NCBI RefSeq assembly: GCF_013184985.2
Contig: NZ_CP063418.1
Span: 1,798,001-1,862,000 of the forward strand
Reading direction: 5' to 3'
Length of the DNA: 64,000 nucleotides
From: Actinomyces faecalis
Lineage (GTDB): Bacteria; Actinomycetota; Actinomycetes; Actinomycetales; Actinomycetaceae
The translations under genes were made by a program, and so were the position numbers. The stretch's first letter is position 1, and each line of letters begins with the position of its first letter. Under the pieces are notes generated by a model. The model made no database searches. It saw nothing but the letters and a program-made list of their open reading frames with translations, and was not told the DNA's origin. Below are positions 2,299 through 64,000 of this stretch, piece by piece.

Positions 2299-3147
2299 TC
2301 AGGCCTGCTCGGTGCCGGCCTCGGCGGTCGGTGCAGCCTCAGCGGGAGCGGCCTCGCCGGCCTCGGCGCCAGCCAGGAGCTGAGCCTCCCACTCGGGCAG
2401 CGGCTCGGCGTCGGCGGTACCGGCCTCGGCCTCCTCACCGGTGCGGGCGCGGCCGGCCGAGCGAGCCATCAGGCCCTCGGCGGCGGCGTCGGCGACGACG
2501 CGCGTCAGCAGGGAGACGGCGCGGATGGCGTCGTCGTTGCCTGGGACACCGTAGGTGACCTCGTCAGGGTCGCAGTTGGTGTCCAGGATCGCGATAACCG
2601 GGATGTTGAGCTTCTGGGCCTCGGCGATGGCCAGGTGCTCCTTCTTGGTGTCCACGACCCAGATGGCCGCGGGGAGCTTGGACATGTCGCGGATACCGCC
2701 AAGGGTCTTGGTCAGCTTGTCCTTCTCGCGACGCATCATGAGCAGCTCCTTCTTCGTGCGGCCGGAGCCGGCCACGTCGTCGAAGTCGATCTGCTCGAGC
2801 TCCTTCATGCGGTCCAGGCGGGCGCGCACGGTGGAGAAGTTGGTCAGCATGCCGCCCAGCCAGCGCTGGTTGACGTAGGGCATGCCCACGCGCTGGGCCT
2901 GCTCGGCCACAGCGGCCTGAGCCTGCTTCTTGGTGCCGACGAAGAGGATGCTGCCGCCGCGGGCGACGGTCTCCTTGACGAAGTCGTAGGCGGTGTTGAT
3001 GCCCTCGACGGTCTTGACCAGGTCGATGACGTAGATGCCGTTGCGCTCGGTGAGGATGAAGCGCTTCATCTTGGGGTTCCAGCGGCGGGTCTGGTGGCCG
3101 AAGTGGACGCCGGACTCCAGGAGCTGACGCATGGTAACGATGGCCAT
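2299..3147 (-). CDS. rpsB: 30S ribosomal protein S2
   Basis: Structural protein of the small ribosomal subunit. The start [19 protein letters not shown] is the standard S2 N-terminus, which fixes the ATG at 3147 (AAAGGA 6-7 nt upstream) even though the frame stays open further upstream. The S2 signatures [12 protein letters not shown] and FVGTKKQAQ are present. The 282-aa protein ends in an acidic, alanine-rich tail of about 40 residues (from about residue 245) typical of actinobacterial S2. It is first gene of the rpsB-tsf operon. Confidence 0.97.
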
Positions 3148-5286: not shown

Positions 5287-6633
5287 TCACCTGGTGACCC
5301 GTCTCCACCCGTCGTCCCCGCGTCGTACCTTCCCCGCCAGCTCCAGGAGCCCCAGGGCCGCGACGACCTCGTGCGGCGCCAGGCCCGCGCTGCGCGCCAC
5401 AGCCTCCACCCCCGCCGCGCCACGCGCCGGCATGGCGTCAAGCACGGCGGCGCTCGGGCGGTCCAGCCCGTCCAGCAGCCCCGAGCCTGCCAGCGCAGGG
5501 TCGGCGTCCTTCTCCTGGTCCGGGTCGGTAGCACCCAGGGGGACGAGAAGCTCAAGGACCTCAGCGGCGTCGCTCACGCACACCGCTCCCTCGCGGAGGA
5601 GGCGGTGGCAGCCCGCCGACTCCATCGAGGTGACCGGACCGGGCACCGCACCAAGGGGACGACCCAGGTCGGCTGCGTGCCGCGCCGTGGACAGCGCCCC
5701 TGAGCGCCAGGCCGCCTCGACCACGACCGTGGCCTGGCTCATCGCTGCGATGAGGCGGTTGCGTGACAGGAAGCGGTGCCTGCCGGGCTGGCAGCCTGGT
5801 GGCACCTCGGCAACGAGCGCTCCGTGAGCCACGACCTCCTCCAGGAGGACGGCGTTGCCGGCAGGGTAGAGACGGTCAACTCCACCTGCCGACACCGCGA
5901 TCGTGCGCCCAGAGCGCAGGGCGCCGCGGTGCGCTGCGGCATCGATCCCGTAGGCGCCTCCGGAGACCACCACCGCGCCCTGCCCCGCGACCTGGGAGGC
6001 GAGCTGGACCGCAACCGTCTCGCCGTACCTGGTGGAGGCTCGCGAACCCACCAGAGCGACGCTCGTGCCGGAGGCGACCCCGTCAGGAACCAGGTCCTCG
6101 CGGAAGCGGTCCGCCTGCGCAGACCTCGGTGCCGCACCCGCACCATCATCGCCGTCGTCGTCCCCGGCCTCATCCCGGTCCTTGCCCCCGTCCGGCACCG
6201 GTCTGGTGGCCAGCAGGGCCGGGTCGCCACGCACCCACAGGCACACAGGAGGCTGCGCCAGCTCGTCCGCCCCTGCTGGCCACCAGGCATCACCAGGTAT
6301 CACGAGGCTGCCTCCCATCCGTTCCAGGACCTCCACCTCCCGGCGGATGTCCAGACCTGGCAGCCGGGGCGCCCACCGGGCGGCCGCCTTGCTCCAGGCG
6401 GCGCTCGCCCGGGCCTGGTCGCCACGAGCGGGCACCGGAGGAGCAGGTGCAGGCCGGGCCTGTCCCTCCTCGTCCAGCGCCGTCCCGAGCAGCCACGCCA
6501 GCGCCTGGCTCGCGCCCAGGTGCTTGACGAGGAGGGAGGCCGCACGGTCAGCCGGCTCGGCCAGGCGCGACCAGGTGGCGCGCGCGAGCACCGGGTCGGT
6601 GAGGTCGTAAGGCAGCGTGGGCCGCGGGGTCAT
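5287..6633 (-). CDS. dprA: DNA-processing protein A (DprA/Smf)
   Basis: Loads RecA on incoming single-stranded DNA in natural transformation. The Rossmann-like core starts near VALVGSRAS and has the nucleotide-type loop VVVSGGAYGID. It also carries the conserved block FLSRNRLIAAMS and the GALSTARHA segment. A C-terminal winged helix (about 390-448) follows. The start is set at ATG 6633, where ATGA overlaps the yifB stop, giving 448 aa. That is longer than the usual 300-390 aa because of a low-complexity Asp/Gly-rich insertion at about 165-185. It sits with yifB (comM), another transformation-associated gene. Confidence 0.92.
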   Translation of the reverse strand: MTPRPTLPYDLTDPVLARATWSRLAEPADRAASLLVKHLGASQALAWLLGTALDEEGQARPAPAPPVPARGDQARASAAWSKAAARWAPRLPGLDIRREVEVLERMGGSLVIPGDAWWPAGADELAQPPVCLWVRGDPALLATRPVPDGGKDRDEAGDDDGDDGAGAAPRSAQADRFREDLVPDGVASGTSVALVGSRASTRYGETVAVQLASQVAGQGAVVVSGGAYGIDAAAHRGALRSGRTIAVSAGGVDRLYPAGNAVLLEEVVAHGALVAEVPPGCQPGRHRFLSRNRLIAAMSQATVVVEAAWRSGALSTARHAADLGRPLGAVPGPVTSMESAGCHRLLREGAVCVSDAAEVLELLVPLGATDPDQEKDADPALAGSGLLDGLDRPSAAVLDAMPARGAAGVEAVARSAGLAPHEVVAALGLLELAGKVRRGDDGWRRVTR

Positions 6634-8198
6634 GACCGTCCTCCCCGCGTGCGCAGCGCCAGGGCCGTCCCCATCTCGGCGCTTCCCGGCCCGTCGAGCC
6701 CGGCCAGGTCCGCCAGGGTCCACGCCAGGCGCAGCACCCGGTCGACGCCTCGTAGGGTGAGGTCCCCGCGGTCCAGCGCGTCCATGAGCATCCCGACCCC
6801 AGCCCGGTCCGTGCCAGAGCGTGGCGAGCGCAGCCACGATCCGGGGACCTGGCTCATGAGCCTCCACGGAGTGCCCTCCAGCCGCCGAGCGGCTCGCTCC
6901 CGCGCCGCGGCGACCCGCAAGGCCACGACGGCGCTGGGCTCCCCCGCGCCTGCGCCGGCCAGGTCGGCGGAGGAGACTGCCGCGACCTCGACCTGGATGT
7001 CGACCCGGTCCAGCAGCGGACCGGACAGCCGGGAGAAGTACCGGCGCCGCTGCAGGGACGTACAGGTGCAGTCCAGCCCACGGCCGCTGGCCCGGCCGCA
7101 CGGGCAGGGATTGGCAGCCAGGACGAGCTGGAAGGCCGCCGGGTAGGTGGCACGCCCACCGGAGCGGTCGATCGTGACGTGCCCGGTCTCCAGGGGCTGG
7201 CGCAGGCAGTCCAGCACGCCCGCTGGGAACTCAGGCGCCTCGTCGAGGAAGAGGACGCCACAGTGCGCCAGGGAGACGTCGCCGGGTCGAGGTAGGCCCG
7301 AGCCGCCTCCGATCACCGCGGCACGGGTCGCCGTGTGGTGCGGGCAGCGCAGCGGAGGGGTGCGGATCAGCCCGGCCTCGGCGTCGAAGGTGCCAGCCAC
7401 GGAGTGCAGGGAGGTGACGGTCACGGCGTCGCTCGTGGCCAGTGGCGGCAGGATCGAGGGCAGACGCTCAGCCATCATGGTCTTGCCCGCTCCCGGCGGC
7501 CCGACGAGGAGCAGGTGGTGCCCGCCGGCAGCGGCGACCTCCAGGGCGTGGCGAGCCTCGTGCTGCCCGACGACGTCGGTCAGGTCCGGCAACGGCGAGG
7601 GCTTGACCGCCCTCGCCGGCGGAGCCGGCCGTCCCTGGGACTGGCGGGCGGTGGCCAGGACGGCCTCGCTCACCGTCCCACCCAGGTGGGTGATGAGCTC
7701 GGCCAGGTGCGCGACCGGGTGGATCTGCACCCCGGGCACGAGCCGGGCCTCAGCCAGGCAGTCCTGAGGGACCACGACGTCGCGCACCCCTGCCTGGGCT
7801 GCGCAGGAGACGGCTGGCAGCACCCCGCGCACAGGCCTGACGGAGGCGTCCAGGCCGAGCTCGCCGATGAAGACCGTCCGGGCGATGACCTGGGTGGCAG
7901 ACCGCGAGAGCTCGCCACGCGCTCCCAGGACCGCCAGCGCGAGACTGAGGTCAAAGCCCGTGCCGGTCTTGGGCAGGTCCGCCGGGGACAGGTTCGCGGT
8001 CACGCGTCGCTCTCCCCAGGCGACGCCACAGGTGGACAGGGCCGAGCGCACACGCTCGCGTGACTCCCGCACGGCGGCGTCAGGCAGTCCCACGAGGGTG
8101 AAGCCGGGCAGGCCTGAGGAGGCGTGGGCCTCGACCTCGACAAGGTGGCCCTGCAGGCCGGTGAGCGTCACCGCCAGGGTGCGGGCCAGCGCGCTCAT
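6630..8198 (-). CDS. comM: YifB/ComM family Mg-chelatase-like AAA+ ATPase
   Basis: AAA+ helicase-like protein which in Vibrio and Haemophilus (ComM) promotes branch migration during transformation. The N-terminal Lon-protease-like domain (GLPGFTLVGLPDAAVRESRE) precedes an AAA+ module. The module has Walker A GPPGAGKTMMAERLP, Walker B LFLDEAPEF and the zinc-binding-type cluster CPCGRASGRGLDCTC. The C-terminal Mg-chelatase domain ends near VLRLAWTLADL. ATG 8198 overlaps the yraN stop (ATGA); a GTG two codons upstream (8204) is an alternative. It is translationally coupled to yraN before it and dprA after it. Confidence 0.93.
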   Translation of the reverse strand: MSALARTLAVTLTGLQGHLVEVEAHASSGLPGFTLVGLPDAAVRESRERVRSALSTCGVAWGERRVTANLSPADLPKTGTGFDLSLALAVLGARGELSRSATQVIARTVFIGELGLDASVRPVRGVLPAVSCAAQAGVRDVVVPQDCLAEARLVPGVQIHPVAHLAELITHLGGTVSEAVLATARQSQGRPAPPARAVKPSPLPDLTDVVGQHEARHALEVAAAGGHHLLLVGPPGAGKTMMAERLPSILPPLATSDAVTVTSLHSVAGTFDAEAGLIRTPPLRCPHHTATRAAVIGGGSGLPRPGDVSLAHCGVLFLDEAPEFPAGVLDCLRQPLETGHVTIDRSGGRATYPAAFQLVLAANPCPCGRASGRGLDCTCTSLQRRRYFSRLSGPLLDRVDIQVEVAAVSSADLAGAGAGEPSAVVALRVAAARERAARRLEGTPWRLMSQVPGSWLRSPRSGTDRAGVGMLMDALDRGDLTLRGVDRVLRLAWTLADLAGLDGPGSAEMGTALALRTRGGRS

Positions 8199-8656
8199 GA
8201 CCACACCCCGCGGTGGTGACGCAGCTGAGCAGGCTGTGAGCCCCGCAGCAGGACGGAGACGACGTCCAGACGCAGCCCACGGTGGTTGACCTCGTGCCGG
8301 GCCGCCCAGGCCGTGGCCAGCCGGGCCAGCCGCCGACGCTTGCCAGCGGTGACAGCCTGGGCTGGCTCACCTGCCGCCGTCGAGGTCCGGGTCTTGACCT
8401 CGACGACCACCAGCAGCGGTTCCTCGTCGTCGTGAGCCGGCTCGAGAGCCACGACGTCAAGCTCTCCTCGCAGGCCCGGCAGGCCTCGGGGCCTCCAGTT
8501 ACGCTCCAGGACGGTCCACCCCTGGTCCAGGAGGTAGACCACGGCCAGGTCCTCGCCCTCGCGGCCCGTCTGACGCCGGTCGGTACCGCTGCCTGCCCGG
8601 AGCACACCTGGCCCCTGCTCGTCCGTGTGGGTCACGTCGACCACCTCCGCCACCAC
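8195..8656 (-). CDS. yraN: YraN (UPF0102) nuclease-fold protein
   Basis: Small protein of the restriction-endonuclease-like fold, molecular role not settled. The family motif is complete: GREGEDLAVVYLLDQGW, then GELDVVAL and LLVVVEVKTRTS, giving the E..D..ExK active-site pattern. It has 153 aa, compared with about 120 for the family; the extra 30 residues are N-terminal and may not all be translated, since GTG 8656 is the furthest start in the frame. It overlaps yifB by 4 nt and belongs to the same minus-strand run. Confidence 0.88.
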   Translation of the reverse strand: MVAEVVDVTHTDEQGPGVLRAGSGTDRRQTGREGEDLAVVYLLDQGWTVLERNWRPRGLPGLRGELDVVALEPAHDDEEPLLVVVEVKTRTSTAAGEPAQAVTAGKRRRLARLATAWAARHEVNHRGLRLDVVSVLLRGSQPAQLRHHRGVWS

Positions 8657-8782
8657 TGTGGCCCACCGTGAGCTCCCAGCGCGATGCCGGCTGATGAGGC
8701 CTGTGGAGGAGGGGGTCAGGAAAGGTCGCTGTGGAGCCCGGGCGAGTACCTCTGGGGTGGCAGAGACGTGTGAGGCGAGCGG

Positions 8783-20086: not shown

Positions 20087-21222
20087 GAAGCCCGATGGCC
20101 CGCGACCACCGGGCAGAGGAGGACGCCAGGCCCTGGTATCGCCAGGTTAACTGGAGCGCCTCCTTGTGGGTCGTCTTCCTGCTGTTCCTTCTGGGGATGA
20201 TCGTGGAGGCGGACACCTCCGTCGCTGTGCGGGCCACCACAGCCGGAGCCGTCGTCGCCTTCATCCTCCTCTACGGCTACACGGTCTCCACCATGCCCTC
20301 GTGGGACCTGCTGCCTCCCGAGACGAGCCCGGCACAACAGGTACGTCCGCTGCTGCGCTACCTGGCGCTCCTTGCTCTACCAGCTGCACTGTGCCTGCCG
20401 TTCCTGGGCTGGTGGTGCGTGTACTTCCTTCCCTACCTCTCGGCCGTCCTCCTCTTCGGAACCCGTCTGGCCACCGGCCTGAGCATCGTGACCACCCTGT
20501 GCGCCGGCAGCATCTTGGCAGCGGTGGCCTCCTCAGAGCCTCTGGAGACCACGTGGCTGGTGGCCGGCTGTAGCCTGTCGTGCCTCGTCGTCGTCATCGC
20601 CCGGATCGGAGACGAGACGACTGAGCGACGTCGGACTGCGGACCGTGAGCTCACGGCGGCCCGTGAACGTGAGGAGATCAGCCGGGACGTCCACGACATC
20701 CTCGGTCACTCGCTGACCGTCCTCACTCTCAAGGCTGAGGTCGCCCAGCGGCTCGTCAGCGTCGATCCTGCCGCCGCTCAGGTCGAGATGGATGAGATCG
20801 TGACGTTGTCCCGCACTGCCCTGGCTGATGTGCGCACCACGGTCACTCGCCTGCGTACCCCTGACCTGGCCAGCCAGTTAGAAGCCTCAGCCACCGCGTT
20901 CGCTGCGGCAGACATTGATGCTCAGATCCATGGGCGTGCTCGCGACATCCCGCTGCCTCAGCGTGAGGTGCTCTCCTGGGCGCTGCGGGAGGCGACGACG
21001 AACGTGCTGCGCCATGCCGGTGCGCGTCGCGTTGTCGTCAGGCTCGCGCCCGGTCGGCTCACGGTGGCCGATGACGGAGCGGGCCTGCGGGGTCACGGCC
21101 CCGGCAACGGCCTGAGCGGCCTGCGGGAGCGGGTGGAGGCCGTGGGTGGGCAGCTTCGGGTCGCCGGCCCAGGGCTGGCCGGCGGAACAGGTGAGGGAGC
21201 TACGGTGGAGGTCACGCTATGA
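20083..21222 (+). CDS. Sensor histidine kinase, DesK/HisKA_3 type
   Basis: Membrane sensor that phosphorylates the response regulator encoded next. About 5-6 membrane spans (25-160) have almost no extracellular loops, as in DesK-like membrane-stress sensors. The dimerisation helix carries the phospho-acceptor His204 (SRDVHDILGHS), and the HATPase domain has REATTNVLRHA, VADDGAGL and GNGLSGLRERV. GTG 20083 overlaps the permease stop and has GGGAG 7 nt upstream; ATG 20095 is an alternative. The pairing with an ABC exporter suggests it senses the exported substrate or membrane state. Confidence 0.92.
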   Translation: MRSPMARDHRAEEDARPWYRQVNWSASLWVVFLLFLLGMIVEADTSVAVRATTAGAVVAFILLYGYTVSTMPSWDLLPPETSPAQQVRPLLRYLALLALPAALCLPFLGWWCVYFLPYLSAVLLFGTRLATGLSIVTTLCAGSILAAVASSEPLETTWLVAGCSLSCLVVVIARIGDETTERRRTADRELTAAREREEISRDVHDILGHSLTVLTLKAEVAQRLVSVDPAAAQVEMDEIVTLSRTALADVRTTVTRLRTPDLASQLEASATAFAAADIDAQIHGRARDIPLPQREVLSWALREATTNVLRHAGARRVVVRLAPGRLTVADDGAGLRGHGPGNGLSGLRERVEAVGGQLRVAGPGLAGGTGEGATVEVTL

Positions 21223-21884
21223 CCACGACGCATCCAGGCTCAGCCGAGCGCCTACCGAGACAGGGCAGCATCCGTCTGCTCGTGGCCGATGATCAGGCAC
21301 TTGTGCGCGGGGCGCTGGCCACGCTGCTCGGTCTGGAGCACGACCTTGAGGTCGTGGCTCAGGTCGGCACGGGCCGTGAGGCTGTCGAGCGCGTGCGCTC
21401 GGGCGGGGTGGACGTGGCGCTGCTGGACATCGAGATGCCAGACGGCGACGGGCTATGGGCTGCCGAGCAGATCGCAGCGATGCGCAGCACTGGCTCCGTC
21501 CGCTGCCGCAGCATCATTGTCACGACCTTTGGTCGTCCTGGTTATCTCTCACGGGCGATTGAGGTGGGAGCGAGCGGTTTCCTTGTCAAGGACACTCCCC
21601 CGACCGAGCTCGCCGAGGCGGTGCGCAAGGTGCACGCAGGCCTGCGTGTCATCGACCCGATGCTGGCCCAGGAGTCGGTGCTGCTGGGCCCGAACCCCCT
21701 GACCGAGCGGGAGCGCGAGGTCCTGCGCCTGGCTGGGAAGGGTCTGGACGCACCCCACGTCGCGGTGCAGCTGAGCCTGGGTGAGGGCACGGTGCGCAAC
21801 TACCTGTCCTCGGCCATCGCGAAGACAGGCTCACGCAACCGGGTCGAGGCAGCCCGCGCCGCAGAGTCCAACGGGTGGCTCTGA
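21219..21884 (+). CDS. LuxR/NarL-type response regulator
   Basis: Receiver domain (18-140) with acidic pocket VADDQ, phospho-acceptor Asp70 (VALLDIEMPDG) and Lys in FLVKDTPP. A LuxR HTH (about 158-215) contains LTEREREVLRLAGKG and EGTVRNYLSSAIAKTG. It overlaps the kinase by 4 nt and probably autoregulates the exporter operon. It ends 25 nt before the orphan copy of the ffh 3' end, so it is the left neighbour of the toxin-antitoxin insertion. Confidence 0.94.
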   Translation: MTTTHPGSAERLPRQGSIRLLVADDQALVRGALATLLGLEHDLEVVAQVGTGREAVERVRSGGVDVALLDIEMPDGDGLWAAEQIAAMRSTGSVRCRSIIVTTFGRPGYLSRAIEVGASGFLVKDTPPTELAEAVRKVHAGLRVIDPMLAQESVLLGPNPLTEREREVLRLAGKGLDAPHVAVQLSLGEGTVRNYLSSAIAKTGSRNRVEAARAAESNGWL

Positions 21885-21909
21885 CGCGAGACCGGAGGCG
21901 CCCCTCGCC

Positions 21910-21946
21910 TCAGGCCAGGCCCAGGCGACGGCGCAGGTCCTCGGGC
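21910..21946. repeat. 37-bp direct repeat, distal copy (ffh 3'-end duplicate)
   Basis: Identical over 37 bp to 22817-22853. Read on the minus strand it encodes PEDLRRRLGLA and the stop codon of ffh, but the sequence before it is unrelated to ffh. Flanks diverge immediately on both sides. Confidence 0.9.
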
Positions 21947-21950
21947 GAGG

Positions 21951-22280
21951 TTACTGCGCGTGGTCCTGCATCCAGCAACGCACCTCGTGCTCGACCTGAG
22001 CAAGGTCCTGCTGGACGGTGACTGTGATCACTCGCGGGTCCACAGTCATGTAGCCATGGACAATCCTGTTCCTCATGCCCCAGATGTCGACCCACTCATC
22101 GCCGAAGCACTCCTGGCGGACCGAGTCCGGAAGCCGGTGAAGCACATCGATCATCGCCGCCATCCGCAGAGCGATGGCATCGACAACTACCGGATCTGAC
22201 AGGTCCCGCTCAGTGTACCTACGCGCCCGCTCGCAATGAAGCAGCGCTTCCTGGCACAGCTGGTAGGCAGTCAGTCTCAC
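21951..22280 (-). CDS. hepT: HepT-like HEPN ribonuclease toxin
   Basis: Toxin of an MntA-HepT system. HEPN toxins cleave RNA through an Rx4-6H motif, here Arg70 to His75 in RNRIVHGY. Tyr77 completes the RxxxxHxY form in which the tyrosine is AMPylated by the antitoxin in characterised systems. The 109 aa are all-helical and of normal family length. The GTG start at 22280 overlaps the antitoxin stop (GTGA), so the toxin depends on antitoxin translation. The function is inferred from motif and partner. Confidence 0.87.
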   Translation of the reverse strand: MRLTAYQLCQEALLHCERARRYTERDLSDPVVVDAIALRMAAMIDVLHRLPDSVRQECFGDEWVDIWGMRNRIVHGYMTVDPRVITVTVQQDLAQVEHEVRCWMQDHAQ

Positions 22281-22750
22281 AGCGGCACGGCCTCACGAAG
22301 GACTCTGTCCCTAAGGTCCGGACGCAGGGACTCCTCGAGGACGAGGTCGACCGGAAGGCCCACGCACTCGCTGAGGCGGCGCTCGATCCGCGCCTGCTCC
22401 AGCAGGCTGACAGCCCGAGCGCTGGTGACCAGCAGGTCGATGTCCGAGTCCTCACGGTCCTCACCGCGCGCGGTCGAACCAAAGACACGCGGCTTCAGGA
22501 GACCAGCCTGAGCCAGAATCTCCCGGACACGCGAACGGCTTCTTCTCAGCACACGGGCGTGCGGGCCCGTTCCGTGGAACCGGACCAGGCGGTTGACCTC
22601 AGACTGGCTACGTCCCACGCACTGAGCGATCTGCCGCTGCGTCAGGCCAGCCGCGTAGGCCTCGCGCACGGTCGACTCAAGCTCCCGCCGGCCGCGTGCG
22701 ATGAGCTCGTCTGCGTGACGGGCTCTGCTCGCGAGGGTGGTGGCGTCCAT
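22277..22750 (-). CDS. mntA: MntA-like nucleotidyltransferase antitoxin with N-terminal HTH
   Basis: Antitoxin that would neutralise HepT by adding AMP to its active-site tyrosine. The minimal nucleotidyltransferase domain (about 78-157) has the full motif GSTARGEDREDSDID (Gly91-Ser92, Asp103, Asp105). The first 75 residues are extra: a helix-turn-helix is visible at about 36-56 (LTQRQIAQCVGRSQSEVNRL). Typical MntA proteins are about 100-140 aa without a DNA-binding domain. The HTH fits with autoregulation through the inverted repeat just upstream of its ATG. Confidence 0.87.
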   Translation of the reverse strand: MDATTLASRARHADELIARGRRELESTVREAYAAGLTQRQIAQCVGRSQSEVNRLVRFHGTGPHARVLRRSRSRVREILAQAGLLKPRVFGSTARGEDREDSDIDLLVTSARAVSLLEQARIERRLSECVGLPVDLVLEESLRPDLRDRVLREAVPL

Positions 22751-22752
22751 GC

Positions 22753-22780
22753 ATCCATGATCGCATATCAGATCATGGAT
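22753..22780 (-). promoter_or_regulatory. Operator inverted repeat of the mntA-hepT operon
   Basis: Perfect 10-nt arms atccatgatc (22753-22762) and gatcatggat (22771-22780) with an AT-rich 8-nt spacer, starting 3 nt before the mntA ATG. The position suits autorepression by the HTH of the antitoxin. Confidence 0.65.
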
Positions 22781-22816
22781 GGAGCGGGATCCTGACGTCC
22801 TTGACCGGCAACAACG

Positions 22817-22853
22817 TCAGGCCAGGCCCAGGCGACGGCGCAGGTCCTCGGGC
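22817..22853. repeat. 37-bp direct repeat, copy forming the ffh 3' end
   Basis: Last 11 codons and stop of ffh; identical to 21910-21946. The repeat begins exactly at the stop codon. Confidence 0.9.
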
Positions 22854-24451
22854 AGGGCGTTCATGGCGTCGGCGACCTCGTCACCGGAGGGCTGAGCCGT
22901 AGGCGCAGCACCACCCAGGCCGAAGGAGGACCCCGCTGCCGGAGCCGCAGGCAGGCTCGGGACCTCGCCCTGCTCACGGCGAGCCGCGACCTCACGCGCC
23001 TGGCGCGCCGCCTTGGCAGGGTTGCCGGACCTGCCCTTCTTACCACCCTTACCGCTCCTGGCCTTGGGCGCCTGGCGGGCCTTGGCACGCTTGCCCATGC
23101 CAGGCAGAGACCCCATGCCCGGCATACCGCCGCCCATACCGCCCAGGCCGCCGCCGGCACTCATGGCCTCCATCATCTTCTTAGCCTGCTCGAAGCGCTC
23201 GACCAGCTGGTTGACGGCCTGGACCGTGGTTCCCGACCCCTTGGCGATACGGGTACGCCGAGAGCCGTTGAGAATGGAGAGGTCACGGCGCTCCGCCGGA
23301 GTCATCGAGCACACGATCGCCTCGATGCGGTCGACCTCGCGCTCGTCAAAGGCCTCGATCGCCTCACGCATCTGGCCCATGCCGGGCATCATGCCCAGCA
23401 GCTTCTTCATCGAGCCCAGCTTGCGGATCTGGCGCAGCTGGTCGAGGAAGTCCTCCAGGGTGAAGGTACCCGAGGCCATCTTGGCCGCGGCGGCCTCAGC
23501 CTCCTTCTCGTCGAAGGTGCGCTGGGCCTGCTCGATGAGGGTGAGCAGGTCGCCCATGTCCAGGATACGGCTGGCCATGCGGTCGGCGTGGAAGCGCTCG
23601 AAGTCCTCCAGGCCCTCACCGGTGGAGGAGAACAGCACCGGGGCACCGGTGACGCCTCGTACGGACAGGGCCGCGCCACCACGGGCGTCGCCGTCGAGCT
23701 TGGACAGGACCACGCCGGTGAAGCCCACGCCGTCGCGGAAGGCGACGGAGGTGTTGACCGCGTCCTGACCGACCATGGCGTCCAGGACGAAGAGGATCTC
23801 GTGGGGGTGGACAGCGTCGCGGATGCGGATGGCCTGGTCCATCATCTCCGCGTCCACACCCAGACGTCCGGCGGTGTCGACGACCACGACGTCGTAGCCG
23901 TAGGTGCGCGCCTGCTCCACGCCGGACGCGGCCACGGCCACCGGGTCACCCACGCCGTTGCCTGGCTCGGGGGCCCACACGTCCACGCCTGCCCGCTCGG
24001 CCACGACGCTGAGCTGGGTCACGGCGTTGGGGCGCTGGAGGTCGCAGGCCACGAGCAGGACGCGCCTGCCCTCGCCCTTCAGCCAGTGCCCGAGCTTACC
24101 CGCCAGGGTCGTCTTACCGGCACCCTGGAGGCCGGCGAGCATGATGACGGTCGGACCGCGGTCGGCCCACCTCAGCTCGCGGGTGGTGCCTCCGAGGACC
24201 TCGACGAGCTCGTCGTTGACGATCTTGATGATCTGCTGGGCGGGGTTGAGCGCCTGGGACCGCGCGGCCTCCTTGGCCTTCTCGCGCACGGCGGAGATGA
24301 AGGAGCGCACCACCGGCAGAGCGACGTCAGCCTCGAGCAGGGCGCGGCGGATCTCGGAGACGGTGGTGTCGATATCGGCGTCGGTGAGGCGGCCCTTGCC
24401 GCGCAGGCCCTTGAAGGAGGCGGTCAGCCGGTCGGAGAGGTTGCCGAACAC
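22817..24451 (-). CDS. ffh: Signal recognition particle protein Ffh
   Basis: GTPase that with 4.5S RNA targets nascent membrane proteins to FtsY. The N domain (1-90) is followed by a G domain with GLQGAGKTT (107-115), DTAGR and SKLDGDARGG. The methionine-rich M domain (about 325-435) carries GMMPGM and SRRTRIAKGSGT. The C-terminal tail (440-544) is Gly/Met then Lys/Arg/Ala-rich, a common actinobacterial feature. GTG 24451 gives FGNLSDRLTASF, the family N-terminus, with AAGGAAGGA upstream. The last 11 codons lie in a direct repeat that borders the toxin-antitoxin island. Confidence 0.96.
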   Translation of the reverse strand: MFGNLSDRLTASFKGLRGKGRLTDADIDTTVSEIRRALLEADVALPVVRSFISAVREKAKEAARSQALNPAQQIIKIVNDELVEVLGGTTRELRWADRGPTVIMLAGLQGAGKTTLAGKLGHWLKGEGRRVLLVACDLQRPNAVTQLSVVAERAGVDVWAPEPGNGVGDPVAVAASGVEQARTYGYDVVVVDTAGRLGVDAEMMDQAIRIRDAVHPHEILFVLDAMVGQDAVNTSVAFRDGVGFTGVVLSKLDGDARGGAALSVRGVTGAPVLFSSTGEGLEDFERFHADRMASRILDMGDLLTLIEQAQRTFDEKEAEAAAAKMASGTFTLEDFLDQLRQIRKLGSMKKLLGMMPGMGQMREAIEAFDEREVDRIEAIVCSMTPAERRDLSILNGSRRTRIAKGSGTTVQAVNQLVERFEQAKKMMEAMSAGGGLGGMGGGMPGMGSLPGMGKRAKARQAPKARSGKGGKKGRSGNPAKAARQAREVAARREQGEVPSLPAAPAAGSSFGLGGAAPTAQPSGDEVADAMNALPEDLRRRLGLA

Positions 24452-24560
24452 TCGGTGTCCTTCCTTGTACGCCGCAGGGGCGCGAGTTGCTGGGGCCCGG
24501 GAGGACGACGGCGGCGGCCTGCGTCCGGCCCTGGGCATGGCTAGGTCCAAGGATAGCGGA

Positions 24561-46583: not shown

Positions 46584-46610
46584 CCCCCTCCCCCCCCCCT
46601 CCTCTCATCG

Positions 46611-46674
46611 CGGTTTTGCGTACGGGATCGGGGTATACGCGCTGTTGTATACCCCGATCCAGTACGCAAAACCG
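46611..46674. repeat. Palindromic intergenic repeat, copy A
   Basis: 28-nt arms (46611-46638, 46647-46674) with one mismatch and the 8-nt loop gcgctgtt. The arm begins cggttttgcgtac and ends ggggtatac. It belongs to the same family as 54620-54687 and 55883-55950. It lies between proC and the ROK operon and could also stop transcription from proC. Confidence 0.92.
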
Positions 46675-53401: not shown

Positions 53402-54613
53402 ATGAAACCGCTGCGTACCGCCGTCGTCGGTGCAGGGCAACGCAGCCGGGAGTTGCTTGCTGCTGCACAGTCGGTGGCTGGGATGGAGATCGTGCTCGTC
53501 ATCGACCCCTCGGCCACAGCCCGCGAGCGCGTGCAGGAGCAGCACCCGGGTATGGTTGCGGCCTCAGGGCTGGAGGCCGCACTGGCCGATCACTCTATTG
53601 AAGCCGCTCTCGTCCTCACTCCTGATGACACCCATGCCTCAATCGGTGCGGCGCTGCTGGAGGCAGGCAAGCACGTCATGGTGGACAAGCCCCTCGCCAC
53701 CACGATCGAAGGGGCTGATGCGCTTCTGGCTGCCGCGGCGCGAGCGGACCGCCTGCTCTATCCTGGGCACAACATGCGTTTCATGCCCGTGGTCGAGATC
53801 CTGCGCCGCGTGGTGACTGAGGGGATGATCGGCACGCCGCAGGCGGTGTGGACCAGGCACTTCGTGGGCCGGGGCGGGGACTATTTCTTCCGTGACTGGC
53901 ACAGTGAGTCGGCACGCTCAGGTGGTCTGCTGGTGCACAAGGCCTGTCATGACCTGGACGCCATGTGCTACGTACTGGGCACGCAGATCAGTGCCGTCCA
54001 GGCAATCGGCACCAACGCCGTCTACCACCGGTGCCCGCCGCGGGCGGTGGACGAGCCCGCGCCCGCCGTCGTCAATGACGTCAGGCACTGGCCTCCCACG
54101 GCCTTGCCGGAGGTGAACCCAGCGATGGACGTTGAGGACCTGTCCATGGTCAATATCGTCTTCGAGGGCGGGATCATGGGCTCCTACGCGCAGTGCCACT
54201 TCACGCCTGACTACTGGCGCAATTACTGCGTGATCGGGGACGCAGGCCGGGTGGAGAACATCGGCGACGAAGCCGGCGGCGGGGTCCTCGTATGGAGCCG
54301 GCGACGTCATGGTTTTGATCCGCAGCCGGATCTGCGTCTGCCGATTCAGGAGCTGTCCGCATCTGGTACCGCGAAGCCGGCAGGGAGCGCCTGGAGCACA
54401 GGGAATCGCGGGGGCGCGGGCCACGATGGATCCGACCGGCGGCTGCTGGAGGACTTCGTGAGCGCGGTGCGCACGGGCAGCCAGCCGCGCACGGACGCGC
54501 TGACGGCACGCAACGTCGTTGCCGCCGGAGTCATGGCCCGGCGCTCCCTGCGAGGCGACGGCCGCCTCCTGGAGGTCCCAGCACCCTTATCCTTCCCCGC
54601 ACCTGCTCACTGA
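53402..54613 (+). CDS. Gfo/Idh/MocA family oxidoreductase
   Basis: NAD(P)-dependent sugar or polyol dehydrogenase. Rossmann start TAVVGAGQRSREL, catalytic-type Lys in VMVDKPLATT, then GHNMRFMPVVEILRRV and HFVGRGGDYFFRDWHSE. It is clearly related to the dehydrogenase half of the ROK fusion: both have HFVGxGGDYxFxDWH and FTPDYWRNY or YTPDYWRNY. A Gly/Ser-rich insertion (about 318-340) is unique to this copy. ATG 53402 is 5 nt from GGAGGAG; the ATG just before (53399) is too close. Probably the last gene of the sugar operon. Confidence 0.92.
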   Translation: MKPLRTAVVGAGQRSRELLAAAQSVAGMEIVLVIDPSATARERVQEQHPGMVAASGLEAALADHSIEAALVLTPDDTHASIGAALLEAGKHVMVDKPLATTIEGADALLAAAARADRLLYPGHNMRFMPVVEILRRVVTEGMIGTPQAVWTRHFVGRGGDYFFRDWHSESARSGGLLVHKACHDLDAMCYVLGTQISAVQAIGTNAVYHRCPPRAVDEPAPAVVNDVRHWPPTALPEVNPAMDVEDLSMVNIVFEGGIMGSYAQCHFTPDYWRNYCVIGDAGRVENIGDEAGGGVLVWSRRRHGFDPQPDLRLPIQELSASGTAKPAGSAWSTGNRGGAGHDGSDRRLLEDFVSAVRTGSQPRTDALTARNVVAAGVMARRSLRGDGRLLEVPAPLSFPAPAH

Positions 54614-54619
54614 CCATTC

Positions 54620-54687
54620 CGCGGTTTTGTGTACGGGATCGGGGTATACAACAGCACGTATACCCCGATCCCGTACACAAAACCGCG
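54620..54687. repeat. Palindromic intergenic repeat, copy B (inverted orientation)
   Basis: Perfect 30-nt arms (54620-54649, 54658-54687) with the loop aacagcac, whose complement gtgctgtt matches the loops of copies A and C, so this copy is inverted relative to them. It carries gtgtac in the left arm and gtacac in the right arm where A and C have gcgtac and gtacgc, a compensated change. It begins 7 nt after the dehydrogenase stop. Confidence 0.95.
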
Positions 54688-54823
54688 ATTCTGGTCGGGC
54701 GGGGCGCGGTGGGGTACGGGTGAGGGCTGGCCCGGGCTCCACAGGCCGCCTCCACGGCAGGCCGCAATCCGTCTGTCCACAGGCCACCAGGACCGGACCT
54801 GTCCCGTCCCTCATGCTGAGGTC

Positions 54824-55852
54824 ATGAACACGACGTCGCAGCCACCGGACCTTCCCCGCATGCGTTTTGCCTCCGAGACAACAGACATGCGCCGTCTGCT
54901 CACCGGCGAGGAGATCCGTGTGCTCCGGGGCGCCTACCTCCTGCCAGAACCTGGCCTGGTCGGCTGGCAACGGCGCCGGGAGGTCAGCCTGGCCCGCGCG
55001 GTAGCCGCTCTGCACTCCCACCCCTCAGCCATCTGCCTGACCCACGAGTCCGCGGCCCTCATCCACGGCTTTCCCGTGCTGCGCAGCGAGCCGGACATCC
55101 ATCTCGCCATGCGTCGGCATCCTCGTGAGAGTGGACGCCGGCTCACGCCCGTGTCCTATGAGGAGCCCGGCGGGCCCGTCACTGGTCGCAGTGTGTGGAT
55201 CCGCCGTCGTGTCCTTCCGCTCATGCCCGACGACGTCGAGGTCGTCTCCGGCCTCCCGGTCACCTCTCCCCTGCGCACCGCGATGGACTGTGCCTGTGAT
55301 CTTCCTGCGCGCCAGTCCCTGCCCATCATTGACGCGGTCTTCATGAGTCTGTGTCAACCGGATCGGTATACCCGCCGCTGCGACGGCCTGGGTGAGGAGG
55401 AGCTGCGTCGCCGGTTGATGGAGGGTATTGAGGCCCAGGGTCGGCGTCATGGGATCCGACGCGCACGTGCCGTCGTCACGATCGCTAGCGCCTTCGCCGA
55501 GTCTCCTGGGGAGTCTGTGCTGCGGTGGACGGCCTGCGCCGCAGGTCTGCCGAGCCCCGTGGCCCAGGCGCACGCACCTGACGAGTACAGCAACCGGAGC
55601 TACTTCCTGGACCTGGGGTGGCCGCAGTGGCGTGTGGGCGCGGAGTTCGACGGCTACCTCAAGTATGACGAGCCGTCAGCGGGCCGGGCTGAAAAGCACC
55701 GGGAGATGCGGCTGCGTGAGGAGGGCTGGCGGATTGAACGATTCGACTGGAAGCACCTGGGCGAGCCTGAGCGGTGCATCGAGCGGCTGAGGACCCTGTT
55801 CCCCGCCGACGTCATCGCCCACACCCGTCCCGTCCGGGACCTGTGGCTGTAA
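54824..55852 (+). CDS. Hypothetical protein, AbiEi-like N-terminus with DUF559-like nuclease fold
   Basis: 342 aa, no signal peptide. The N-terminal 90 residues resemble AbiEi-type winged-helix proteins (LTGEEIRVLRGAYLLP, then ALHSHPSAICLTHESAALIHG). The C-terminal 80 residues look like a Vsr/DUF559 endonuclease fold: YFLDLGWPQWRVGAEFDGY, KHREMRLREEGWRIERFDW, with Asp and Glu in the expected positions. Actinobacteria hold many such proteins, often of unknown role. ATG 54824 has only a weak GAGG. The gene is bracketed by palindrome copies B and C in opposite orientation. The assignment is from pattern only. Confidence 0.7.
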   Translation: MNTTSQPPDLPRMRFASETTDMRRLLTGEEIRVLRGAYLLPEPGLVGWQRRREVSLARAVAALHSHPSAICLTHESAALIHGFPVLRSEPDIHLAMRRHPRESGRRLTPVSYEEPGGPVTGRSVWIRRRVLPLMPDDVEVVSGLPVTSPLRTAMDCACDLPARQSLPIIDAVFMSLCQPDRYTRRCDGLGEEELRRRLMEGIEAQGRRHGIRRARAVVTIASAFAESPGESVLRWTACAAGLPSPVAQAHAPDEYSNRSYFLDLGWPQWRVGAEFDGYLKYDEPSAGRAEKHREMRLREEGWRIERFDWKHLGEPERCIERLRTLFPADVIAHTRPVRDLWL

Positions 55853-55882
55853 GCCCCTGTGCAGCCCCGTCGGCGTCTCAAC

Positions 55883-55950
55883 CGTGGTTTTGCGTACGGG
55901 ACCGGGGTATACATGCTGTTGTATACCCCGGTCCCGTACGCAAAACCACG
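55883..55950. repeat. Palindromic intergenic repeat, copy C
   Basis: Perfect 30-nt arms (55883-55912, 55921-55950) with the loop atgctgtt. Inner arms read gaccgggg and ccccggtc where A and B have gatcgggg and ccccgatc, and the outer base pair is also changed on both sides. It lies between convergent genes and ends 28 nt before the valS stop, so it may serve as a terminator. Confidence 0.95.
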
Positions 55951-55978
55951 ATTCTGATGGTGGGTTACTGGGTCATCG

Positions 55979-61423: not shown

Positions 61424-63334
61424 GTGAGCCCACGTACCCAGCAGATCGAGTCTCAAGCCACACCGTCGCTCTCCGGCTGCCCGTCACTGGTCGACGGCGT
61501 CGCGATCTCCCCGCTGACCAAGGAGCCAGAGCCGAGCTGGACGGTGCCCTGGCTGCTGGCCGACCGCATCGAGCGTCTGCCTGAGGCCACGCTCATTGAG
61601 CGCAAGTCCCGCCTGGGCAACACCTGGGTGCCGGTCAGTGCCCGCAGCTTCGGTGATGAGGTGGTCCGGGTCGCGGCTGGTCTGATTGCTCGGGGCCTGG
61701 AGCCCGGCCAGACCGTGGGCCTGATGGCCCACACCTCCTATGAGTGGACCCTGCTGGACATGGCGATCGCCCGGGCCGGCTTGGTCTCCGTGCCGATCTA
61801 TGAGACAGACTCCGCCGAGCAGATCGAGTGGATCCTCACCGACGCCGAGCTGCGCCTGGTCATCACCGAGTCCGTGGCCCTGGCCGAGATCGTGCGCCAG
61901 GCCGTATCCGCCCGTCGCGAGGCAGATCCGCAAGCACCGGTAGCCGAGATCCTCAGCCTGGACCATGACGCCCTGACGGCACTGACCGTCGCCGGCGCCC
62001 AGGTTCCCCGTCAGGAGGTCGAAGCACGCACGGCGGCGCTGCACGGCGAGAACCTGTACTCCATCATCTACACCTCCGGTACCACGGGCCGACCCAAAGG
62101 CGTGGAGCTGACGCACAGGAGCGCGGCCGGGCTGGCGTGGAACGGCGTGCGCTGGATGCCCGACCTGCTGTGGACCGCCTCCGCCCGTCTCCTGCTCTTC
62201 CTGCCGCTGGCCCACGCCTATGCGCGATTCCTCCAGCTGCTGGCCATCGGCGGCCAGGGGGTGCTCGGCCATACCCCCGATGCCAAGACCCTCCTGCCGG
62301 ACCTGCAGGGCTTTGCCCCCACCTACGTGCTGGCAGTGCCGCGCGTCATGGAGAAGATCTACAACGCCGCTGACGCTAAGGCTGGATCGGGGGCAAAGCT
62401 CAAGACCTTCCGCTGGGCCGCTAAGGTGGCCATCTCCTACTCCCGTGCCCTGGACACCGAGGCCGGTCCCTCTCCTGTCCTCAAAGCAGCCCACGCGCTG
62501 GCCGATCGCCTGGTCTACCACCAGCTGCGAGCGCTGCTGGGGCCCAACGCCCGTTACGCGATCTCTGGCGGCGGCCCGCTCGGCGATCGCCTGGGGCACT
62601 TTTACCGCGGGATCGGCCTGGTCATCCTTGAGGGCTACGGCCTGACCGAGACCATCGGTCCGGCCACGGTCAACCTCGACTCGCGCAACAAGATCGGCAC
62701 CGTCGGCCCACCCGTGCCGGGGATGCACATCCGCGTGGCCGATGACGGCGAGCTGCAGGTGCGCGGGCTGTCGGTCTTCCCCCGCTACCACCACAACCCC
62801 ACCGCCGACGCCGAGGCCTTCACCCCCGACGGATGGTTCCGCACCGGGGACATCGGCTCGATCGACTCCGACGGCTGGGTCCGGATCACCGGGCGCCGTA
62901 AGGAGCTCATCGTCACCGCCGGAGGCAAGAACGTCGCCCCCTCGATCCTGGAGGACCGTCTGCGCGGGCACCCACTGGTCAGCCAGGTCCTCGTGCTCGG
63001 CGACGGCGAACCCTTCATCTCGGCCCTCATCACCCTCGATGCCGAGATGCTGCCGCAGTGGCTGAGGAACCACGGCCTGCCGGAGATGGACGTCGTTAAC
63101 GCCGCCACGAACCCCGAGGTCCTGGCGGCCCTGGACCGTGCCGTGGCCCGCACCAACCGTGCGGTCTCACGCGCCGAGTCGATCCGTACCTACCGGGTCC
63201 TCACCACGGACTTCACGGAGGCCAACGGGCTACTCACCCCCTCGCTCAAGGTCAAGCGCGCAGCCGTCATGACAGCGCACGCCGACGTCGTCGCGGACAT
63301 CTACTCCACAACCAAGAAGGGCCCTCAGGACTAG
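61424..63334 (+). CDS. Long-chain fatty-acid-CoA ligase (AMP-binding)
   Basis: Activates fatty acids as acyl-AMP then acyl-CoA. The P-loop-like A3 motif is YTSGTTGRPKGVELTH, followed by GYGLTETIGPATVN (A5), DGWFRTGDIGSID (A7), GRRKELIVTAGGKNVAPS (A8) and the A10 Lys in TPSLKVKR. At 636 aa it matches the FadD15-type synthetases of actinobacteria. The GTG 61424 start is supported by the -10 box directly upstream. The next gene is a paralogue in the same direction. Confidence 0.93.
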   Translation: MSPRTQQIESQATPSLSGCPSLVDGVAISPLTKEPEPSWTVPWLLADRIERLPEATLIERKSRLGNTWVPVSARSFGDEVVRVAAGLIARGLEPGQTVGLMAHTSYEWTLLDMAIARAGLVSVPIYETDSAEQIEWILTDAELRLVITESVALAEIVRQAVSARREADPQAPVAEILSLDHDALTALTVAGAQVPRQEVEARTAALHGENLYSIIYTSGTTGRPKGVELTHRSAAGLAWNGVRWMPDLLWTASARLLLFLPLAHAYARFLQLLAIGGQGVLGHTPDAKTLLPDLQGFAPTYVLAVPRVMEKIYNAADAKAGSGAKLKTFRWAAKVAISYSRALDTEAGPSPVLKAAHALADRLVYHQLRALLGPNARYAISGGGPLGDRLGHFYRGIGLVILEGYGLTETIGPATVNLDSRNKIGTVGPPVPGMHIRVADDGELQVRGLSVFPRYHHNPTADAEAFTPDGWFRTGDIGSIDSDGWVRITGRRKELIVTAGGKNVAPSILEDRLRGHPLVSQVLVLGDGEPFISALITLDAEMLPQWLRNHGLPEMDVVNAATNPEVLAALDRAVARTNRAVSRAESIRTYRVLTTDFTEANGLLTPSLKVKRAAVMTAHADVVADIYSTTKKGPQD

Positions 63335-63489: not shown

Positions 63490-64000
63490 ATGAGCCTTGA
63501 TGCCTCCTCCGTCACCCCCGGCCAGACCACGAGGGCCCGCGAGTACTCCACCGCCCTGACGACCCCGGTCCACGCTGGCATGACCACGCCCTGGGCCCTG
63601 GCCGAGCGCGTGCGCCGCAACCCAGACGGCGCCCTCATCGCGCGCAAGTCCTCAGTCGGCGGGCGCTGGCGGGACATGCCGGCACGCTCCTTCCGCGCCC
63701 ACGTGCGCGAGGTAGCGGCCGGCCTGGTCGCCCAGGGGATGCAGGCCGGGGACGCCGTCGCCATCATGGCTCACACGTCCTACGAGTGGACCTTGCTGGA
63801 CTTCGCTATCTGGGAGGCCGGCTGCGTCGTCGTCCCCGTCTACGAGACCTCCTCCGCCGAGCAGACCTCCTGGATCCTCACTGACGCCTCAGTACGTCTC
63901 ATCGTCGTCGAGGACGAGGCGATGGAGGCCGTGGTGGTCTCGCTCAAGGCCCAGGACCCCGCGCTGGCCGACCTCCAGGTCCTCTGCCTGGCCAAGGAGG
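63490..64000 (+). CDS. Second long-chain acyl-CoA synthetase, N-terminal part (cut by window end)
   Basis: The 170 residues visible align with the preceding synthetase: TPWALAERVRRNPDGALIARKS, VAAGLVAQGMQAGD, IMAHTSYEWTLLD and VYETSSAEQTSWILTDA (pieces given separately). It starts at ATG 63490. The AMP-binding motifs lie outside the window. A tandem duplication followed by divergence is the simplest explanation for the pair. Confidence 0.88.
   Translation, partial: MSLDASSVTPGQTTRAREYSTALTTPVHAGMTTPWALAERVRRNPDGALIARKSSVGGRWRDMPARSFRAHVREVAAGLVAQGMQAGDAVAIMAHTSYEWTLLDFAIWEAGCVVVPVYETSSAEQTSWILTDASVRLIVVEDEAMEAVVVSLKAQDPALADLQVLCLAKE

Follow-up and report, generated by a model that had tools for sequence, protein, structure and literature searches.

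A horizontally acquired MntA-HepT module has probably inserted at the 3' end of ffh in Actinomyces faecalis, duplicating 37 bp of its target and being captured without a recombinase. The view that mntA-hepT was inserted where ffh and a response-regulator gene face each other is well supported by the 64,000-nucleotide stretch of the chromosome that was analysed (the window) and by related loci across the genus. In the window, two direct copies of a 37-bp sequence lie 907 bp apart (Table 1), identical throughout, and the flanks beyond them do not match. Read on the minus strand, each copy comprises one base, the last 11 codons of ffh (PEDLRRRLGLA) and the TGA stop, and the orphan copy lies 4 bp past the hepT stop. 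With up to 3 mismatches allowed, this sequence matches only twice in the window against an expectation of 0 (100 shuffles), and the whole genome (G000) holds it at the same two places only. The sole recognisable genes between the copies are hepT and mntA, accompanied by an 11-bp inverted repeat, and the GC content of the module is 64.6% compared to 69.5% for the window. No tRNA gene was found in the window. An earlier note on this DNA had described a perfect 37-bp repeat that begins at the ffh stop codon (22817) and recurs at 21910, an orphan copy consisting of the last 11 ffh codons plus stop, and an interval holding only hepT, mntA and their operator; each of these descriptions is borne out by the repeat comparison, the minus-strand reading, the open reading frames and Pfam matches, and the inverted repeat. 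The prospect it had raised, of a repeat spread widely through the genome, is answered by the two-copy count.

Table 1. Features of the ffh locus in the window.
Feature	Position	Strand	Evidence
Gene for a LuxR-type response regulator, convergent with ffh; outer border of the insertion	21219..21884	+	PF00072, PF00196
Putative ancestral junction of ffh and regulator: 25 bp from the orphan tail to the response-regulator stop	21885..21909	.	
Orphan repeat copy, read as the former ffh 3' end	21910..21946	-	identity to the ffh-joined copy
hepT: HEPN RNase with RX4HXY, putative toxin	21951..22280	-	PF01934, 54.7 bits
mntA: N-terminal HTH-like part and minimal nucleotidyltransferase with GSX10DXD, putative antitoxin	22277..22750	-	PF01909, 52.7 bits
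Probable mntA-hepT operator: 11-bp exact inverted repeat with 8-bp spacer	22752..22781	.	arms 22752-22762/22771-22781
ffh-joined repeat copy (last 11 codons, stop, one base)	22817..22853	-	100% identical to 21910-21946
ffh ORF (signal recognition particle GTPase), intact, 3' end duplicated	22817..24550	-	TIGR00959, 559.9 bits

The two module genes are adjacent with a 4-bp overlap, and their matches to NTP_transf_2 (MntA) and to the HepT-like family (HepT) both exceed the Pfam gathering scores. MntA carries the motif GSX10DXD (GSTARGEDREDSDID) and HepT carries RX4HXY (RNRIVHGY), the motifs given for this class of HEPN/MNT toxin-antitoxin pairs in the published MntA-HepT account (PMC7641770); overlapping genes are likewise common to the window pair and the pair described there. 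HepT would presumably act as the toxin and MntA as its antitoxin, which in MntA-HepT systems neutralises HepT by adenylylation. In contrast to the published MntA (PMC7641770), the window protein has an extra N-terminus of ~65 residues that is HTH-like (PF19575 and PF13384, both below cut-off). Both window proteins also fall below the NCBIfam equivalog cut-off of 60 (44.1 bits for MntA, 30 bits for HepT), which is a naming rule rather than a defining trait of MntA-HepT. In PADLOC, MntA matches the candidate defence family PDC-S09 at 91.2 bits, and no family there matches HepT. To judge from its position directly upstream of mntA and from the HTH-like part of MntA, the inverted repeat is probably the operator of the pair. 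MntA is closer to an MntA of another genus (57%, residues 2-157) than to its best full-length match in its own genus (50%); over the nucleotidyltransferase part only, matches within the genus reach 53%.

Relatives offer a view of the junction into which the module would have been placed. The ffh gene and its downstream region were taken from 48 loci of the genus, the A. faecalis locus included, and a regulator ortholog adjoins ffh in 33 of them. As the earlier note had proposed checking, genomes exist in which ffh directly faces the regulator: in five of the 47 other loci (G001, G019, G022, G026 and G045), the two stop codons are only 14-25 bp apart. The other loci among the 33 have gaps of 0.1 to 5.7 kb, and most of those listed contain varied ORFs. 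The orphan tail in A. faecalis ends 25 bp from the regulator stop, the very position where the end of ffh would be. Furthermore, the 28 bp after the orphan tail show a modest match to the G026 spacer (score 7, p = 0.013 against shuffled spacers, the best of five tested and uncorrected for these five comparisons), whereas the sequence after the ffh-joined copy aligns with it no better than shuffled spacers do (score -4). With a sequence behind it that resembles an ffh-regulator spacer, unlike that following the ffh-joined copy, the orphan copy most plausibly represents the old end of ffh and mntA-hepT the newcomer. Among the relatives, a clean single-copy allele of the ffh site is found in none: G026 offers the spacer match only, and the nearest relative, G044 (Ffh 95% over residues 3-530), has an assembly gap exactly at the ffh-regulator site. 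This gap and a broken ffh frame in G028 leave 45 other informative ffh loci, G018 having only 406 bases downstream, and in not one of them is the ffh tail duplicated. The earlier note had also suggested looking for other cargo between the two repeats; this was not seen at the ffh loci of the genus.

The ffh-regulator gap is a hotspot for cargo in the genus in its own right (L043-L090). In G005, it holds an AAA_21 and DUF4276 gene pair by Pfam, with look-alike ORFs in several other genomes; a FitA-like antitoxin gene is found in G042, and larger inserts occur elsewhere. In G010 (L065), a 241-aa ORF is enclosed by two 80-bp palindromic copies (82%; 2031-2110 and 2932-3011), which are perhaps an older target duplication or else two copies of a dispersed hairpin.

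Related modules in the genus are flanked by repeats at other genes. A search with MntA returned 63 matches, from which 14, mostly among the weakest, were left out of the flank comparison; this took 50 loci, representing 49 distinct places as L117 and L150 are the same. A locus was scored positive when comparison of both flanks gave a direct repeat of more than 46 bits touching the module. By this measure, eight of the 50 loci, at seven sites, carry flanking repeats, 37-222 bp long and unrelated in sequence. Besides ffh itself (G000; 37 bp, 100%), the duplicated targets are the region around the 5' end of a helicase gene of the PRK09751 type, which we take to encode Lhr (G003; 50 bp, 88%), the end of a uvrA-like gene (G036; 91 bp, 96%), the ROK glucokinase gene glk (G001; 114 and 97 bp, 97% and 90%), hemL (G006; 176 bp, 100%), an asparaginase gene (G010; 65 bp, 91%) and an AIM24 gene, the same site being used in G035 and G045 (175 and 222 bp, 97% and 94%). 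Repeats from different sites have at most 15 aligned bases in common (E up to 0.1). The module lies 3' of the duplicated gene and in the same direction in G000, G036, G001, G006 and G010, while in G035/G045 it faces the duplicated AIM24 gene; in G003 it is the 5' end of the gene that has been duplicated. The repeats in G036 and G006 include a palindromic intergenic element that has further copies elsewhere in those genomes.

Applied to controls, the same flank test was positive in one of 30 ffh loci, in none of 10 regulator loci and in two of 282 random cores. Three entries of that run (L227, L242 and L243) are coordinate artefacts, and the test was repeated with proper gene ends. Mismatched flank pairs stayed at or below 46.4 bits in 396 of 400 cases, and the four higher pairs were all loci sharing neighbouring sequence (L140 x L138, L110 x L141, and L093 x L096, drawn twice). 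The gene family of window positions 54824-55852, being itself flanked by palindromic repeats, is no neutral control and was kept apart. For a wider view, 13 direct-repeat pairs with a spacing of 300-3000 bp, the 37-bp pair included, were found in 7 sequences across 435 kb (47 ffh neighbourhoods and the window). It is highly improbable that the flanking repeats are unrelated to insertion, whether as a dispersed repeat or as a chance local duplication. Another gene in the window does have copies of a dispersed palindromic element on either side (54619-54693 and 55882-55956), and this element occurs at 12 places in the genome, but the 37 bp are ffh coding sequence confined to two places, both beside the module, and repeats accompany modules at a frequency well above that of the ffh, regulator and random controls.

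Repeat-flanked modules are a minority pattern, because 42 of the 50 genus loci, and all 14 family loci from outside the genus (11 plus L033-L035), have no repeat touching the module. Two candidates were dropped, namely L110, whose repeat (42.8 bits) is one of the tail of MntA, and L103, where the related sequence is ~1 kb off on each side. A 91-bp repeat in L215 (G021:C1; 72.5%, 52.7 bits) does not touch the module, and the flanks of L214 (G017:C13) contain no repeat. A separate observation concerns the AIM24 site, where at least three genomes (G039, G030 and G017) carry the gene tail twice and the interval holds other or decayed sequence (L138, L140, L211, L212 and L214), possibly one old insertion in which the module has been replaced.

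At two of the other sites, hemL-asd and glk, module-bearing and module-free alleles coexist among relatives. For hemL-asd, G015 and G007 match both flanks of the G006 module at 87-90% identity; 181-182 bp are shared by the two flank alignments, corresponding to one copy of the repeat and no module. Similarly, G019, G020 and G013 lack the module at the glk-transporter junction and have one repeat copy, with flank alignments that overlap by 88-112 bp. G021 has the same module beside glk as G001 but no second tail, and is also without an intergenic stretch common to G001, G019 and G020. Since this adjoining stretch is missing as well, it is simpler to suppose that G021 has lost the tail, although G001 may have gained its tail copy later. 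At uvrA-rarA, the module-free G026 has a gap of ~35 bp and is also without the hairpin that forms most of the G036 repeat; because of this, and because the hairpin recurs in the G036 genome, the uvrA-like case is kept as weak evidence. No clean module-free allele was found for G003, G010 or the AIM24 site of G035/G045. Empty sites could also be scars of later excision instead of the older state, as recombination between the repeats would restore an empty site.

Coexisting alleles would also be expected if a relative's DNA with a module beside ffh had entered through homology on one side and illegitimate joining on the other, leaving the recipient's last 37 bp of ffh in place. Such one-sided homology yields the exact structure with an arbitrary repeat length, but no genome of the genus set has a module beside ffh without a repeat, and the first insertion is left unexplained. 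The hemL-asd copies argue against it as well, being 100% identical in G006 whereas the far copy in G042 is 78% to G006 (L131, 1292-2872). In this G042 locus, the module occupies the hemL-asd site, yet the hemL end is different and ~0.7 kb of other sequence precedes the module. Given identical copies in G006 and 78% for G042, it would seem that repeat copies are homogenised by recombination or that the G006 event is recent. One-sided homology is considered an unlikely origin of the ffh locus.

The module itself is without a fixed end, terminal repeats or a recombinase. The hepT stop precedes the second repeat copy by 4 bp in G000, 10 bp in G036, 24 bp in G035 and 18 bp in G045. In G003 and G006, the HepT frame enters the repeat by ~30 bp and the repeat copy supplies the stop codon; the loci of G001 and G010 gave no HepT match. 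Ends that vary between genomes argue against a transposon or an integrative element, either of which would be expected to end at the same sequence each time. A transposon was further rejected on the grounds that none of the 7 inverted-repeat pairs of at least 10 bases in 21940-22830 joins the module ends. Among plasmids, 1456 records match MntA, but no match extends over 80% of the protein, and the 10 matches listed cover the nucleotidyltransferase part only; no plasmid matches the module DNA, and phages gave one weak MntA match. Plasmid or phage carriage was rejected in turn, as MntA over most of its length is found on neither.

A perfect repeat at the restored 3' end of a gene is the usual look of site-specific integration, and integrative elements at gene 3' ends employ such a direct repeat to restore the conserved gene, a trait common to the window locus. 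An integrase would in that case have joined the 37-bp ffh end, as attB, with the attP of an element, and would since have been lost or have acted in trans. Outside the genus, such a route may operate. In a Brooklawnia sp. MAG (L033), a related MntA-HepT pair and TOTE-system genes lie within 2.9 kb (5693-8680) bounded by a tRNA-Pro gene (8607-8680) and a 22-bp exact copy of part of it at 5693-5714; this may be a small defence island integrated at the tRNA gene. A scan of 23 other MntA loci with ARAGORN detected no tRNA. At ffh, unlike in integrative elements, the module amounts to 0.9 kb only, with no recombinase gene, shared attachment site or fixed ends to be seen. The missing second tails at the 45 other informative loci stand against integration too, as do the related modules at unrelated targets with other repeat lengths. 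Furthermore, two exact ffh-tail patterns had no match in viral contigs, and phage matches to the ffh tail, taking the best 10 of 24, do not exceed 40 bits (E 0.1 or worse). Integration into ffh by a site-specific recombinase is considered very unlikely. From the integration pattern put forward in the earlier note, insertion at a junction of facing genes thus stands, whereas a site-specific element at ffh, or its remnant, is not supported, given the other ffh loci and the modules that use other lengths, sequences and genes.

In the capture of the module with target duplication, ffh would at first have directly faced the response-regulator gene. After the event, the complete ffh 3' end would be followed by the module and then by the second tail copy at the old junction. 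Most likely, a module-bearing fragment would have been taken up at a break with a wide stagger, followed by filling-in of the single strands, or else a polymerase would have switched templates and re-entered the chromosome upstream of its exit point. Staggered-break fill-in, template switching and one-sided homology would all predict the observed structure. The ffh event is probably one of a class in the genus for which both the insertion point and the duplication length (37-222 bp) are variable. Selection would have retained those events that left the host gene whole and expressed antitoxin and toxin, and survivors would sit at gene ends because of the selection for an intact host gene. Recombination between the two copies would be expected to delete the module exactly and give back the empty site; toxin release upon loss would oppose this. 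It is a tentative and somewhat doubtful extension that the genus possesses a hitherto undescribed, recombinase-free form of DNA capture, by which short fragments with toxin-antitoxin genes enter next to conserved genes, duplicate tens to hundreds of bp of the target and are then kept in place by addiction. If true, toxin-antitoxin modules would be self-sufficient mobile genes without mobility genes, as proposed for restriction-modification systems.

Toxin-antitoxin genes are common in chromosomes and, to our knowledge, their arrival in cases without a visible mobile element is poorly understood. Insertion with long target duplication was reportedly described for restriction-modification systems in Helicobacter pylori by Nobusato et al. 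in 2000 and Furuta et al. in 2010. Accounts of this kind of insertion for restriction-modification systems of H. pylori deal with an addiction-type module, variable target-derived repeats of the order of ~100 bp and no known mobile element, traits shared with the module in the window (PMC3874152, PMC3031569, PMC1643837). The pattern around MntA-HepT appears to match the one known for restriction-modification systems, here applied to type VII toxin-antitoxin modules. It differs from those cases in the type of module, in repeats of 37-222 bp at several sites in one genus, and in HepT frames that sometimes end inside the duplicated target. The literature searched contained no account of target-duplicating insertion for MntA-HepT. 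The likeness links toxin-antitoxin modules to the long-target-duplication insertions of restriction-modification genes, and related modules may spread without an integrase of their own. As several insertions retain a readable scar and some have module-free relatives, the arrival route is testable in strain collections and capture assays.

Other repeats in the window are of a different kind. A gene for a 342-aa protein (54824-55852), presumably AbiEi/DUF559, lies between two copies of a 75-bp palindromic element (54619-55956); the protein has only a weak REase_MTES_1575 match (E 0.0028). In the window, the element is found at 54612-54700, 55880-55956 and 46607-46674, and it is dispersed through the genome (G000) with 23 matches at 12 places, 11 of them matched on both strands. 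Flank repeats of more than 46 bits surround members of the 342-aa gene family in 21 of 29 usable genus loci and differ between genomes, and at 12 of these 21 they are self-complementary at more than 40 bits. RAYT genes are tied to the spread of REP elements, and the 342-aa nuclease-like gene is possibly tied to the spread of hairpin elements in an analogous way. Finally, a 178-bp direct repeat, 74% identical, occupies 61669-61846 and 63711-63888 with a spacing of 2042.
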